Source of the DNA: a virus
Length of the DNA: 20,227 nucleotides
Direction: 5' to 3' (one strand)
IMG/VR virus record: IMGVR_UViG_3300006749_000196
Span: 1-20,227 of that record
Shown: in pieces, positions 9,917 to 16,279 of the stretch
Numbering within the stretch: the stretch's first letter is position 1
Layout: every line of letters begins with the position of its first letter
Notes under the pieces: model-generated
The model's database searches: none
Seen by the model: only the letters and a program-made list of their open reading frames with translations
What the model was told of the DNA's origin: nothing
Program-made: the position numbers and the translations under genes

Positions 9917-10297
9917 TTACCTCTTAAAAAACTTTTGTATTCCACGCACACCAAATGACGCTGATATGGCGATACCTAAACTGTAAAAATACCAGTCTGG
10001 TGCTTTGGAGAGTTGTTCAAAACCGCGGTCAACCCAACCCTCTGCACCCGGAATCCAACATAAAATCAACGGAATACTTAAAATAATTACAAAATATTCG
10101 TCTTTCCAACTCGATTGAGAACCCTGTGCCATGATGCGCTCCCAGTCTGCAACTGAGGTCTCTTTGCTCATCATTATTTTGGCTTTCGCTTCCGCCTCTG
10201 TTAGCTTTAGCTTTGCACTTGCAGCTTGTGCCTGTGACTTCGCATCGAACCAACTTCCTGCTAGATTAGCTATTGGCCCTATCAATGACTGTAGCAT
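9917..10297 (-). CDS. GTA-type holin family protein
   Basis: This 126-residue protein has an Ala/Lys-rich amphipathic N-terminal half (A-K-S-Q-A-Q-A-A-S-A-K-L-K-L). The motif S-S-W-K-D-E-Y-F-V-I-I-L-S-I-P-L-I-L then leads into a membrane segment (about 67-83) with I-P-G. A second segment starts at P-D-W-Y-F-Y-S-L-G-I-A-I-S-A-S-F-G-V-R-G (about 100-118). The K-D-E-Y...P and P-x-W-Y...S-F-G-x-R pattern matches the GTA_holin_3TM family (PF11351), holins of gene transfer agents and phages. It would form the inner membrane holes that release endolysin. Two genes downstream lies the endolysin, as expected. The start is fixed by the TAATG overlap. Confidence 0.75.
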   Translation of the reverse strand: MLQSLIGPIANLAGSWFDAKSQAQAASAKLKLTEAEAKAKIMMSKETSVADWERIMAQGSQSSWKDEYFVIILSIPLILCWIPGAEGWVDRGFEQLSKAPDWYFYSLGIAISASFGVRGIQKFFKR

Positions 10298-10644
10298 TAT
10301 TCTTCCTCCATCTTAATGCTAGTCTTCTTACTTTCGGCCTTTGCGCTATACGCATTGAAACCCATAAAAGCTGCGACCACACCGGAAGCTGCAATTACAT
10401 ACACACTAGCAATATCTGTAATTAAACTTGCTGCTTTATCAAACCCAAGCACCGAAGCAAGCAATATTATAAATGGATAAATCAACATACCCATCAAAGC
10501 AAAACCTGTAAAACGTCGTTCTGCGTTACGTTTGAGGTCACGGTCAATCATCTCAAGTCGTCTATCCTCCAGAGCAATTTTATTCCACTCTGCTTTCTCT
10601 ATAACGCCATTGTTATTGGTATCTGCTTTTTCAAACTCTGTCAT
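10297..10644 (-). CDS. EF-hand membrane protein, holin candidate
   Basis: I choose the ATG at 10644 (115 residues): GAGGT lies eight bases upstream, while the frame's earlier TTG at 10665 has no support. Residues 8-19, D-T-N-N-N-G-V-I-E-K-A-E, form a perfect EF-hand loop with D1, N3, N5, G6, I8 and E12. A charged helix follows (E-D-R-R-L-E-M-I-D-R-D-L-K-R), then two membrane segments at about 46-68 and 75-96 and a charged C-terminus (K-K-T-S-I-K-M-E-E-E). Two-helix small proteins next to an endolysin are holin-like; the calcium site is unusual. Calcium binding and hole formation are both inferred. Its stop overlaps the next ATG (TAATG). Confidence 0.75.
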   Translation of the reverse strand: MTEFEKADTNNNGVIEKAEWNKIALEDRRLEMIDRDLKRNAERRFTGFALMGMLIYPFIILLASVLGFDKAASLITDIASVYVIAASGVVAAFMGFNAYSAKAESKKTSIKMEEE

Positions 10645-10753
10645 TTTTTGACCTCGTATACGCAATCGCTACTTTCTTATCACGAGTGATTATAACAACT
10701 TTTCCTCGTTTGTCATATATTATGTATTTCCCACGCCATTCCTTGAGTATCAC
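10631..10753 (-). CDS. Tiny GTG-start basic protein (40 aa)
   Basis: A 40-codon ORF begins with GTG at 10753; that codon overlaps the TGA of the 53-residue gene as GTGA, a classic coupling junction. The product reads V-I-L-K-E-W-R-G-K-Y-I-I-Y-D-K-R-G-K-V-V, then I-I-T-R-D-K-K-V-A-I. It is very basic with alternating hydrophobic residues that suggest a beta hairpin. Its end overlaps the start of the EF-hand gene by 14 bases. Without it this stretch would be about 105 bases of empty space in an otherwise packed operon. No function is recognised; the call rests on junctions and composition. Confidence 0.5.
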   Translation of the reverse strand: MILKEWRGKYIIYDKRGKVVIITRDKKVAIAYTRSKNDRV

Positions 10754-11696: not shown

Positions 11697-12233
11697 CTAC
11701 TCGTATAGCTCTAAATCTTCGGAATAATGTTTACATATATCTACTATGGTACTTTCTAATAAAGCTTCTTTAGTATAATAAGGTATGCTTTTATTGTCAT
11801 GGCGTGCAGGTAAACCTAAATAGCTAAATACATTTTGTATGTGCTCGAACCGAAATAGTTTAATTGGTAAAGAACCTTTTAGATAATGTACTTGCGGTAG
11901 AAACGGGAACATCTCATCTTCTTCTACAGAATCATCCATTAATAAATAACTTAACTCGTTTACGTCTTCTATTGCAGCGTACTTATGATTAGAAAAATCG
12001 TTCGTTTTAAAGTAGTTCAAACAACTTATAATTCTATCTATAGGATTTCTAATTACTGCTACAGCGCTCTTTGGTTGAGGTATAGAGAACGATTTTGCTA
12101 ATTGTTCAACTTCGTGAAGGGGTTTGTGCCCTTGAAATAGTGCGTCATCTTTTTCAAGAAAAGGCATCACCACGCTTTTTGAACCAGTTTTTGGTATTTC
12201 TAAAAAAATTATTTGCTTTTCCACGAAGTACAT
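11697..12233 (-). CDS. Short sulfotransferase-family protein
   Basis: This 178-residue protein has both PAPS-binding signatures of the sulfotransferase superfamily. The 5'-phosphosulfate loop is I-F-L-E-I-P-K-T-G-S-K-S (residues 9-20). The 3'-phosphate loop is A-V-I-R-N-P-I-D-R-I-I-S-C (59-71), with Arg62, Arg67 and Ser70. A G-H-K-P segment (35-38) may supply the catalytic His. It ends Y-S-E-D-L-E-L-Y-E, as in Sulfotransfer_2 proteins. It would move sulfate from PAPS to a sugar or other hydroxyl, acceptor unknown. It is short for the family, so the acceptor-binding part is reduced. The ATG at 12233 must be near the true start because the P-loop begins eight codons later, which makes the 80-base overlap with the preceding gene real. 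Confidence 0.82.
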   Translation of the reverse strand: MYFVEKQIIFLEIPKTGSKSVVMPFLEKDDALFQGHKPLHEVEQLAKSFSIPQPKSAVAVIRNPIDRIISCLNYFKTNDFSNHKYAAIEDVNELSYLLMDDSVEEDEMFPFLPQVHYLKGSLPIKLFRFEHIQNVFSYLGLPARHDNKSIPYYTKEALLESTIVDICKHYSEDLELYE

Positions 12234-13011
12234 TAGTGGTTCTCGTTTCAGCTTCTATCCATTTTTTCTTTGCTTTAGTTACCATTTGTTGTCTACGTGG
12301 TTTCGCTAGTCCACGCGAAGTAATATACAAAAGCGAACTAGCCATTTGATGGTCATTTTCTACTGCGTCTCTTATTTCTATTTCTATTTTTTTATCTGTA
12401 AAAGGAATTACGTGCATTAAGGGGGTTCCTGCTCTTAACACATAATTTTTAAAATTACCTCTAATGTATCCTTGCACGTTAAGAAAATTTATATCTTTAC
12501 TAAGATCTAGCATACCCCCAGAAGCAGTAAATATATCTTGATCTGGAGTCATTACAGGCAGAATCAATAGCTTTAAGTTGGGATTTGTAGACCCTACTAT
12601 CCAAGAAGTGTTTATTTTAAGAACTCCATTTGCTATTATTGTATGACTTTCGGATACACTATGACGACTATGCCATTCGATAGGGATTATATCTGCAACA
12701 GTTCCACCAGTGCCTTTTGCATCTGCGTCTACTACATTGATTGACCCCGGAGTATGCCAATTTAAGTTATTATCTTCGTCAACACTTAAATGAATATCAT
12801 ATGGTAAGATTACAGCTACGCCCATAGAATTTAAAAGCGGGAAAGAAGGACATTTACCATAATGAGTTGTTGTTGTACTGCCTCCTTCACTTATTTCCTT
12901 CATTTCTTGCTTTGCTCTTGTTTGCCAATTAAACTTGCAAGAACTCATTTTCTGAACGGGGAAATAGTCAACATCCCCTTTAATGGTGCTAAAAAATACT
13001 ACTTTGTCCAT
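12154..13011 (-). CDS. DUF6065-like protein of unknown function
   Basis: I do not firmly recognise this 285-residue protein. Its layout resembles DUF6065: a G-K-C-P-S-F...N-S-M-G-V-A-V-I-L-P-Y-D segment at about residues 52-72, a middle G-V-L-K-I-N-T-S-W, and a late L-R-A-G-T-P-L-M-H-V-I-P-F (about 192-204). The final ~45 residues are basic and helical (K-A-K-K-K-W-I-E-A-E, F-F-R-N-T-K-N-W-F-K-K-R) and look like an added tail. The gene lies three bases after the 2OG oxygenase, so the two probably act together. Its last 80 bases overlap the sulfotransferase gene in another frame. An AAAGGT site precedes the ATG at 13011. Confidence 0.7.
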   Translation of the reverse strand: MDKVVFFSTIKGDVDYFPVQKMSSCKFNWQTRAKQEMKEISEGGSTTTTHYGKCPSFPLLNSMGVAVILPYDIHLSVDEDNNLNWHTPGSINVVDADAKGTGGTVADIIPIEWHSRHSVSESHTIIANGVLKINTSWIVGSTNPNLKLLILPVMTPDQDIFTASGGMLDLSKDINFLNVQGYIRGNFKNYVLRAGTPLMHVIPFTDKKIEIEIRDAVENDHQMASSLLYITSRGLAKPRRQQMVTKAKKKWIEAETRTTNVLRGKANNFFRNTKNWFKKRGDAFS

Positions 13012-13014
13012 AGT

Positions 13015-13617
13015 TTATACCTTTAATCTGTTTAGATTCTCTAAACAACCAAGCTCACCCCTATAGAAAGTATTGAAAGACAAACTTATTCTAGTAGAAT
13101 TTCTCTGTTGCAGCATAGGCACTGCATGTTCGATAAAAGAAGGAAACAAATATAACATACCAGTCTTAACAGGAACACTCTCTCCTCCACTATTAAAGGG
13201 AGTGTCTTCAGTTGTTATAACTTTTATCATGGGTTCTATAGGATTGAAAAAATGAATACAGTCCAGCTCTTCTGTTGCTTGTGGGTAGTAAACCCCTGAT
13301 AATATAGAGTTTGGGTGTTTATGCTTGTGGTGCCACTCGTTAGGTTCAGAATAATTACACCAACTTTGGGTAATGTTTAAAGTAACGCTATCCTGTGCTT
13401 TTTGTATCTCTCTTAAATAAAATAATACTTGCGCCTCAATCTTACGCGCTATGTTTGAAAGCTGTGGTCTGTTTAAGATATAATTATCTTTAGAAGTTTT
13501 ATTTCCTTGGTTGGGTACTTTCTCAAGCTTTTTTATATAGGTTAATTCGTCTTCATCAGGTGGACCTAAATCAACCTGCTGAATAGCCGTAGGAAAAAGA
13601 GGTATTAAGTTGTTCAT
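13015..13617 (-). CDS. 2-oxoglutarate/Fe(II)-dependent oxygenase
   Basis: This 200-residue protein matches the small phage and marine-bacterial 2OG-Fe(II) oxygenase family (TIGR02466 type). It opens N-N-L-I-P-L-F-P-T-A-I, as these proteins do. The core is W-C-N-Y-S-E-P-N-E-W-H-H-K-H-K-H-P-N-S-I-L-S-G-V-Y, split here around His99/His101, the probable first metal ligands. A later F-P-S-F-I-E-H-A-V-P carries the second His (about 164), and R-I-S-L-S-F-N carries the Arg (about 176) that would hold 2-oxoglutarate. Length is typical. Such enzymes hydroxylate proteins, nucleobases or small molecules; the substrate cannot be told. It starts right after the adhesin stop (TAGATG) without a clear ribosome binding site, so coupled re-initiation is likely. 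Confidence 0.85.
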   Translation of the reverse strand: MNNLIPLFPTAIQQVDLGPPDEDELTYIKKLEKVPNQGNKTSKDNYILNRPQLSNIARKIEAQVLFYLREIQKAQDSVTLNITQSWCNYSEPNEWHHKHKHPNSILSGVYYPQATEELDCIHFFNPIEPMIKVITTEDTPFNSGGESVPVKTGMLYLFPSFIEHAVPMLQQRNSTRISLSFNTFYRGELGCLENLNRLKV

Positions 13618-14591: not shown

Positions 14592-15083
14592 TTAGTCTCC
14601 CGGTTTTACAACTCTTGGGTCGTATATCTCGTTTCCATCATCATCTGTTATCTTGGATGATTCTTCCCAAGCGGTTGCATCTTCATTCCACCACCACTTT
14701 CCTGTATCTAAATCTTCTGGATAAGGCACTGGTGGGTGAAACGCGCACAATGTTTCATTAAAAGTCCAACTATCAGGAGTACCCTCAATTTTAGCAGCTT
14801 TAGCCTCTGCTATTTTAGCTGCTTTTTCTTCGGCTGTCATATCTCTTATATTGCGTCTATTTCTAACTACCCCATCGCTCTCTTTTACAAAAAACTCATC
14901 TGGGCTGACTAGCACTTGGTATACCCCAATAGGTTCTGCAGATAACTGTTCAAAAGGAGCTAAGTTAGAAGGTAAATTATTGAAGTCTAGATTTGGCATT
15001 ACTTGAGATAAATTTTCTTTTAATAAAGGAAAATTAATAGGATTGCCGTTTTGATCTAAGTAAATATAGTAATTATAGTGCAT
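14592..15083 (-). CDS. Tryptophan-rich protein, possible fibre assembly protein
   Basis: I place the start at the ATG at 15083, giving 163 residues. It is preceded by AGGAG eight bases upstream and overlaps the preceding stop as TAATG; the longer open frame to 15158 lies inside the upstream gene and lacks support. The protein begins H-Y-N-Y-Y-I-Y-L-D-Q-N-G-N-P-I-N. It has an E-K-A-A-K-I-A-E-A-K-A-A-K helix at about residues 85-99 and a Trp-rich C-terminus (G-K-W-W-W-N-E-D-A-T-A-W-E-E, 128-141). Small proteins ending in such W-x-W-N-E...W segments often lie beside phage fibre genes and resemble fibre assembly chaperones. Its place between two glycine-rich adhesin genes fits that role, but the function is not proven. 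Confidence 0.72.
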   Translation of the reverse strand: MHYNYYIYLDQNGNPINFPLLKENLSQVMPNLDFNNLPSNLAPFEQLSAEPIGVYQVLVSPDEFFVKESDGVVRNRRNIRDMTAEEKAAKIAEAKAAKIEGTPDSWTFNETLCAFHPPVPYPEDLDTGKWWWNEDATAWEESSKITDDDGNEIYDPRVVKPGD

Positions 15084-16279
15084 TACACATCTCCTGTATT
15101 CGTAGCAGGGTACGCTCTCGTTGTGCCACTCGACCCTGACCATATTATTCTTGCGCAACCCGCTATTCCAGTAACACCTCCATAACTTCGCCAGTTAAAT
15201 GTAGCTAATCCTTGGCCTCTACCACCAGAACCCGCGCCGCCACCCCCAGATAACCCGTCGCTATCAGCAGATCCTCCAGTACCATTAGCTCCTGCACCGC
15301 TCGGCATTGTTGGGGTAGTTCCTCTTCCACCAGTTTTAGTGCTGCCTCCATAACCACCTTGACTAGCGCTTGAATAACTTGAGCTGTTACCATTTCCACC
15401 AGTAGAACCACCACTATTAGGCATAGGAACTTGAGAAGCTCCACTACCAAGATCTTGAAGGCTCGTGCCGGGTGCGGGTGAGGATATACTACCACCAACA
15501 CCGCCGCCGCCAATGGCTTCTGAGTAAACTGTTGTAACACTTCCATAAGCACCGTCTACATAACCGCCAGCACCGCCGCCGCCAGCATTAACAGTATTGT
15601 ATCCTGATCTAACAGCAGGTGCTCCATCTCCACCACCATCACCTATTCGTAAAGGAAGCGTTGTTCTATGCTTATATTTAGCAGCATTTGTCCAATTATA
15701 ATTTTCGTTATTGGGGTCATTGTACACAGTAAAATTACCACCGCCGCCATAACCTCTATATTGTTTGTTAACATCATAGCTTGTTATTGCGATTTGGTGT
15801 AGAGATCCGCCTTCATTAGTTCCAGTGCTACCTCCACCTCCACAGGCAAGGGCTACTGTCCCTTGCGCCCACGCTGTATGACCACCCTCTGGTGATGGAT
15901 AGGCGGAGTTAACATAGTTACTCGTGTTAGAAAGTGGCTGCTGTCCATACCCAGCCGCTCCTGTCGATATAAAATAGGTTCTGTGCGGCGTTACAGATAT
16001 GGTATTTTTATAAGTTAGGTAACCACCACCTCCAGCGTTGATAGTTCCGGGCCAGTTAGCATAAACTATACTACTCCCGCCCCCACCGCCAATACCGCAA
16101 AAGCTTATTTCTGTTACACCTTTGGGACATGTCCACGTTGAAACTCCCGCCCCTGATAAATCAGTTTGACCTGCAGGCACTCCAGCATTCACACTTTGGT
16201 ACACTTCATCTGTCGTAAAAACCCCAGAAGTTGAAGTTGCTTCAGTTGTTTTAATTATACCACCCGGATATCTACCCAT
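15083..16279 (-). CDS. Glycine-rich adhesin/tail fibre protein 1
   Basis: This 398-residue protein has an N-terminal stretch (M-G-R-Y-P-G-G-I-I-K) and then S-T-W-T-C-P-K-G-V-T-E-I-S-F at about residues 47-60. The rest is a long glycine-rich region with many runs of three to five Gly that alternate with short Asn/Ser/Tyr segments. This is the phage glycine-rich domain type, which in known phage adhesins can fold as stacked polyglycine II helices. It ends with A-R-I-I-W-S-G and R-A-Y-P-A-T-N-T-G-D-V. It is probably a distal receptor-binding protein. It resembles the shorter glycine-rich protein at 13618-14589. Its TAA shares one base with the next ATG (TAATG). Confidence 0.8.
   Translation of the reverse strand: MGRYPGGIIKTTEATSTSGVFTTDEVYQSVNAGVPAGQTDLSGAGVSTWTCPKGVTEISFCGIGGGGGSSIVYANWPGTINAGGGGYLTYKNTISVTPHRTYFISTGAAGYGQQPLSNTSNYVNSAYPSPEGGHTAWAQGTVALACGGGGSTGTNEGGSLHQIAITSYDVNKQYRGYGGGGNFTVYNDPNNENYNWTNAAKYKHRTTLPLRIGDGGGDGAPAVRSGYNTVNAGGGGAGGYVDGAYGSVTTVYSEAIGGGGVGGSISSPAPGTSLQDLGSGASQVPMPNSGGSTGGNGNSSSYSSASQGGYGGSTKTGGRGTTPTMPSGAGANGTGGSADSDGLSGGGGAGSGGRGQGLATFNWRSYGGVTGIAGCARIIWSGSSGTTRAYPATNTGDV

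Follow-up and report, generated by a model that had tools for sequence, protein, structure and literature searches.

A candidate late cassette of 2OG-Fe(II) oxygenase, DUF6065-like and sulfotransferase genes behind the glycine-rich adhesins of a marine tailed phage

The window, a 20,227-base piece of a marine tailed phage, carries its genes on the minus strand. In transcription order, structural genes are followed by two glycine-rich adhesins, a 2OG-Fe(II) oxygenase (2OG), a DUF6065-like protein (DUF), a sulfotransferase, membrane-type genes, an endolysin and a stabilisation-type protein. The features that matter here are the following:

15083..16279, minus strand: glycine-rich adhesin 1 (398 aa, 24% Gly; PF21722 Gly_rich_2, E 9e-7), probable context
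14592..15158, minus strand: 188 aa protein between the two adhesins (phrog_7759), with a C-terminal Trp-rich motif, conserved in the related locus L003
13618..14589, minus strand: glycine-rich adhesin 2 (323 aa, 28% Gly; PF21722, E 2e-9), the proposed substrate
13015..13617, minus strand: 2OG-Fe(II) oxygenase (200 aa; PF13759 / TIGR02466 / phrog_81)
12154..13011, minus strand: DUF6065-like protein (285 aa; phrog_7084), dUTPase-like predicted fold plus a C-terminal helix
11697..12233, minus strand: short PAPS-type sulfotransferase (178 aa; phrog_3347), PSB and PB motifs
12154..12233, minus strand: DUF/sulfotransferase overlap of 80 nt read in two frames; same overlap in L003
9044-9652, minus strand: GH19-type endolysin (phrog_181)
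6932-8812, minus strand: stabilisation-type virion protein (phrog_3287)

The three genes that the original prediction had grouped at 11697-13617 are complete, intact and adjacent minus-strand ORFs. They follow the second adhesin without a gap, as had been claimed: its stop codon abuts the 2OG start (13618/13617), with zero bases between. The lysis genes expected on the far side are the GH19-type endolysin and the small membrane-type genes between it and the sulfotransferase. A second metagenomic contig (L002) matches the window over 9,482 bases with one mismatch, so the gene arrangement is no assembly artefact. A role in fibre assembly for the 188 aa protein between the adhesins is a guess.

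The cassette genes had been described as more AT-rich than the fibre genes, and they are (33-36% GC vs 48-49% in the glycine-rich genes), but the difference is mostly one of Gly codons, because third-position GC (0.25-0.31) lies within the spread of the other window genes. Foreign origin on grounds of base composition is ruled out by this ordinary third-position GC. A defence system was likewise ruled out, PADLOC giving no match, and the window holds no Rfam-matching RNA element and no tRNA. Two further ORFs deserve mention. A 122 aa protein of the lysis module (10297-10665) contains one EF-hand-like calcium motif (PF13202, E 8e-5, slightly below cut-off), and its homologue is present in L324, a relative by structural genes. 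A 1734 aa protein (ORF 600-5804) without a PHROG match contains a run of NTNTGV repeats at 871-1173, near its C-terminal part.

The name 2OG-Fe(II) oxygenase is borne out by three profiles: PF13759 (E 1.7e-18, 67.3 bits against a cut-off of 27), phrog_81 (E 6.9e-42) and TIGR02466 (69.5 bits, above the cut-off of 62.5). H99, H101, H164 and R176 are invariant in 53/53 nonredundant homologues of a divergent set, and the HxH...H...R pattern is common to the PDB relatives 2rg4 and 3bvc. The canonical HxD/E...H facial triad is absent; every one of the 53 homologues has His in place of the carboxylate, which by this alignment is a trait of the oxygenase family and no loss in this phage. The putative iron site is read here, from the residue pattern, as intact but unusual. 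Marine phage 2OGs are reported to resemble the human prolyl hydroxylase EGLN3 (PMC12774648).

The company that this gene keeps was examined in 80 loci for which the 2OG profile was the sole query, the best 80 of 545 relatives; the sample therefore favours the window's subfamily. To count as glycine-rich, a gene had to encode 120 aa or more with >20% Gly and to lie on the same strand no more than 3 kb upstream. Such a gene precedes 2OG in 69/69 of these best-of-545 loci that have at least 1.5 kb upstream, often touching it or separated from it by one gene of 81-86 aa; a first pass at a 15% Gly threshold had given 68/72 in the same best 80 of 545. Counted by lineage at 70% identity, 11/12 have the upstream glycine-rich gene, window included and again among the best 80 of 545, with two of the 12 lineages supplying most loci. 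By the same criterion, a glycine-rich gene occurs in 2/31 sulfotransferase loci and in 6/31 related-phage loci fetched with the stabilisation protein, independently of 2OG. Fisher's test of 11/12 lineages vs 6/31 loci gives P 2e-5, with both control sets picked after the pattern had been seen. A 2OG gene is found in none of the 31 stabilisation-protein loci, so that six related phages carry glycine-rich adhesins without it: the adhesins occur without 2OG, but members of the window's 2OG subfamily are almost always accompanied by a glycine-rich adhesin.

The intervening protein of 81-86 aa is conserved (LLRPGAKWEISN..WDDPRPCP) and sits between the glycine-rich adhesin and the 2OG gene in many phages (L119:7756-8001, L126:1886-2140, L141:1833-2087 and similar); the L126 copy, when tested, had no Pfam match.

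The second gene product belongs to a family whose collected members all (34/34) match phrog_7084, a PHROG without known function. The name DUF6065-like holds, though Pfam PF19541 (DUF6065) itself gives no match in the window even at E 10 and its gathering score is missed: hhalign of the 34-sequence profile against true DUF6065 proteins returns a probability of 96% (E 4e-9), colinear over 185 columns. By this profile comparison the window protein is a remote DUF6065 homologue, with the phage proteins lying below Pfam detection. Foldseek matches of its AlphaFold (AF2) model (pLDDT 86.5, pTM 0.82) are nearly all dUTPases and dCTP deaminases in the PDB (best E 5e-4, TM to query 0.2-0.35), and uncharacterised phage proteins followed by dUTPases in a viral library. 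A PDB sequence search with this protein and with the sulfotransferase found no significant relative.

These fold matches, with a weak profile match to the Wsv112 dUTPase (E 0.02), raise the idea of nucleotide or DNA modification, in which a dUTPase-fold protein and the 2OG oxygenase would act together to oxidise a base or nucleotide. This is highly improbable. Comparison of the family with dUTPase profiles is not significant (hhalign probability 0.8%), motif II (RSS/RSG) and the C-terminal motif V are unrecognisable, with no RSS/RSG among the conserved columns, and the genes lie in tail modules, not with replication genes. Motifs and profile comparison rule out identity as a dUTPase enzyme (PF00692); the protein is read, tentatively, as dUTPase-like in predicted fold and not as a dUTPase.

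In phages, DUF genes sit near several kinds of tailoring enzyme. In 14/18 DUF lineages (60% identity), DUF and a 2OG gene share a strand and are no more than 3 kb apart, compared with 0/41 sulfotransferase loci that have 2OG at this distance. The window's order of fibre genes, 2OG and DUF recurs in L012, L013 and L030, and T4-like cyanophages have fibre genes, then a halogenase, DUF and oxygenases. The gene that overlaps DUF in cyanophage Syn10 encodes a product matching PDB 6QGM at every residue except the first; this is VirX1, a cyanophage iodinating halogenase described with a large, open active site and a broad substrate range (PMC8407142). Beside fibre genes, the Syn10 locus has a member of the same DUF family directly after a tailoring enzyme, with 2OG genes behind DUF; it differs from the window in belonging to a T4-like phage, in having many more oxygenases, and in carrying a flavin halogenase where the window cassette has a sulfotransferase. 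The Trp halogenase domain PF04820 occurs in 10/21 sampled DUF records, while no PF04820 flavin-dependent halogenase ORF lies beside DUF in the window. Other neighbours include an Asp/Asn beta-hydroxylase (L067) and a methyltransferase-domain protein (L012). A scan of genome contigs with DUF gave a single match, in a Prochlorococcus single-cell contig with the order halogenase-DUF-2OG.

The methyltransferase-domain protein is a 538 aa product with a C-terminal Methyltransf_24 domain, encoded after the fibre genes and before 2OG and DUF (L012:5790-7406, L013:5790-7403); it is possibly another exchangeable tailoring enzyme. Two DUF-carrying phages (L075, L077) appear by eye to have IMP dehydrogenase and adenylosuccinate synthetase-like genes, and also acyl carrier and phosphopantetheinyl transferase-like genes.

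A metabolic role for the oxygenase, whereby turnover of 2-oxoglutarate would alter nitrogen signalling in the host or provide succinate, was put forward for cyanophages by Sullivan et al. 2010 (PMC3037559). For the present locus this is very improbable, since it leaves the adhesin linkage, DUF, the halogenase and the sulfotransferase unexplained.

The third gene had been called a short PAPS-dependent sulfotransferase, a name that phrog_3347 (E 7e-7) upholds while Sulfotransfer_2 in Pfam scores 18.9 bits, under the cut-off of 22. The 5'-PSB motif IPKTGSKSV and the 3'-PB motif VIRNPIDRIIS are both intact, and E130 is invariant in 31 relatives. The AlphaFold model (pLDDT 88) has a predicted SULT-like fold and its top Foldseek matches are sulfotransferases, a model-based result that supports membership despite the sub-cut-off Pfam score. 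The cofactor-site residues, on which the original prediction depended, are kept in both enzymes. Because the sulfotransferase start codon lies within the DUF gene, the 80 nt of overlap code for the DUF C-terminal helix and for the PAPS loop. The C-terminal extension of DUF (12154-12233) looks like overprinting after arrival of the sulfotransferase gene.

Sulfotransferase orthologues stand beside DUF only in this phage population and in L003. Relatives in Pelagibacter phage Mosig adjoin glycosyltransferases and methyltransferases, and the gene upstream of the Mosig sulfotransferase is not DUF-like. This setting, the name galactose-3-O-sulfotransferase given to phrog_3347, and the fact that the sulfotransferase is the least adhesin-linked of the three genes would fit enzymes that act on the host late in infection, hydroxylating and sulfating its surface glycans, proteins of the outer membrane or a secreted peptide; superinfection might be blocked in this way, for instance, or virions kept from sticking to debris. 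Such a host-directed function is unlikely: it does not explain why 2OG genes lie behind glycine-rich adhesins in nearly all lineages, and the cassette is without transport or glycan genes.

Comparison with related phages limits how far the three genes can be treated as one unit. The full trio was found only in this phage population, and co-occurrence beside glycine-rich fibre genes, as originally proposed, is strong for pairs of genes and does not extend to all three. L003 has the adhesin, DUF and sulfotransferase and is without 2OG; among the other 2OG loci fetched (best 80 of 545), DUF is absent, and the sulfotransferase is absent in nearly all. In L324, a DUF homologue lies between holin-like and endolysin genes, with a different, non-orthologous Sulfotransfer_3 enzyme 0.7 kb upstream, a second such association. 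HTVC023P, HTVC027P, 023Pt_psg01 and DSL-LC04 have 2OG genes in a slot between fibre and stabilisation genes where DUF and the sulfotransferase are absent. DNA identity to L003 is 76% in the sulfotransferase region, whereas the adhesin and most of the neighbouring DUF are far more diverged.

The genes might accordingly be unrelated cargo, gathered at a recombination-prone junction between fibre and lysis genes and sharing no joint pathway. The trio is not conserved, 2OG is missing from L003, DUF sits elsewhere in the lysis module of L324, and the uneven divergence from L003 points the same way; the region from fibre to lysis genes is a general cargo site, so that linkage need not mean action on the adhesin. 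The pairings of 2OG with DUF and of 2OG with the adhesin, however, are far above controls, and the sulfotransferase, the other cargo gene tested, is away from glycine-rich genes in most loci, which makes chance assembly of this kind unlikely.

Bacterial DUF6065 genes offer a mixed picture. On alphaproteobacterial plasmids, DUF6065 can follow an autotransporter at a distance of 9 nt, come behind a collagen-repeat protein or stand ahead of an RTX repeat protein; elsewhere its neighbours are a sigma factor, an S8 peptidase or an amidohydrolase. The proposal that bacterial DUF6065 always stands beside adhesins was dropped given these contexts. The sampled plasmid members are without the 2OG and halogenase partners of the phage proteins. 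On an Ochrobactrum plasmid (L210:4211-5806), a gene for a collagen-repeat (GXY) surface-type protein directly precedes DUF6065. On a Sinorhizobium plasmid (L217:2649-5405), DUF6065 stands behind genes for an amidohydrolase and a SAM-methyltransferase, and an S8 peptidase is encoded close by, an arrangement that resembles a small modification cluster.

The reading favoured here, at a rough probability of 45%, is a modular late cassette that modifies the tail adhesins and comprises a 2OG hydroxylase, a DUF6065-like partner and an exchangeable tailoring enzyme. It is supported by the cofactor residues, the 2OG-adhesin and DUF-2OG pairings, the position of DUF beside other tailoring enzymes, the recurring 2OG slot, the bacterial DUF6065 genes beside surface proteins and the EGLN3 likeness. 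Against it stand L003 without 2OG, the six adhesin-bearing relatives without 2OG, the general cargo character of the fibre-lysis region, the mixed DUF6065 contexts and the concentration of most 2OG loci in two lineages. Gene integrity, cofactor-site residues, predicted folds and co-occurrence are read directly from the sequence. Conserved cofactor residues and strong pairwise co-occurrence make the fibre modification first proposed reasonable, although the three-gene combination is not conserved. Since 2OG hydroxylases lie behind glycine-rich adhesins in nearly every lineage checked, they probably decorate the adhesin, a substrate suggested by gene order only.

From these observations we infer enzymatic activity, substrate, order of steps and an effect on host range. 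The target of the 2OG oxygenase would be the glycine-rich tail adhesin when newly made, or a neighbouring fibre protein, whose side chains would be hydroxylated; the DUF6065-like protein would be the partner of the oxygenase, most likely for substrate binding or delivery. The sulfotransferase would then transfer sulfate from PAPS to a hydroxyl (of the hydroxylated residue, Ser/Thr or Tyr), and sulfation would give the adhesin a different charge and receptor specificity. In cyanophages, a VirX1-type flavin halogenase would take the place of the sulfotransferase, with halogenation instead. It is possible, if doubtful, that marine phages have in common a modular system for decorating tail adhesins after translation, in which DUF is a dUTPase-fold carrier which recruits an interchangeable 2OG hydroxylase, VirX1-type halogenase, sulfotransferase or methyltransferase to glycine-rich receptor-binding proteins.

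Parts of this arrangement have precedents, and the claim of an undescribed pathway stands only in part. Fe(II)-dependent oxygenases were counted in 2014 among the genes for host recognition that lie in hypervariable islands of marine phages (PMC3909814); they are of the same broad type and in the same position beside fibre genes, to which the present analysis adds a quantitative link to glycine-rich adhesins and, behind it, DUF6065-like and sulfotransferase genes. VirX1 is also known already. A link between DUF6065-like proteins and VirX1 was not found in the literature searched, nor was one between hydroxylases and phage fibres or glycine-rich adhesins in the same search, which covered few subscription journals. 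No mention of DUF6065 was found there either, which is weak evidence because most subscription journals were outside the reach of the search. The polyglycine adhesin gp38 at the tail tip of phage S16 (PDB 6F45; PMC6851490) also has glycine-rich motifs, a likeness at the level of motifs, and in what was consulted of that account no comparable cassette was found.

2OG oxygenases and flavin halogenases occur commonly among marine phages, where the usual label for them is auxiliary metabolic gene. The tight link of the former to adhesins, and a partner gene that overlaps VirX1, suggest the phage's own receptor-binding proteins as a candidate substrate. If DUF is indeed a carrier, the native substrate of VirX1 would be a tail protein. 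If the cassette acts as proposed, enzymatic modification would join sequence variation as a means by which phages tune host recognition, a role to which hardly any thought has been given.
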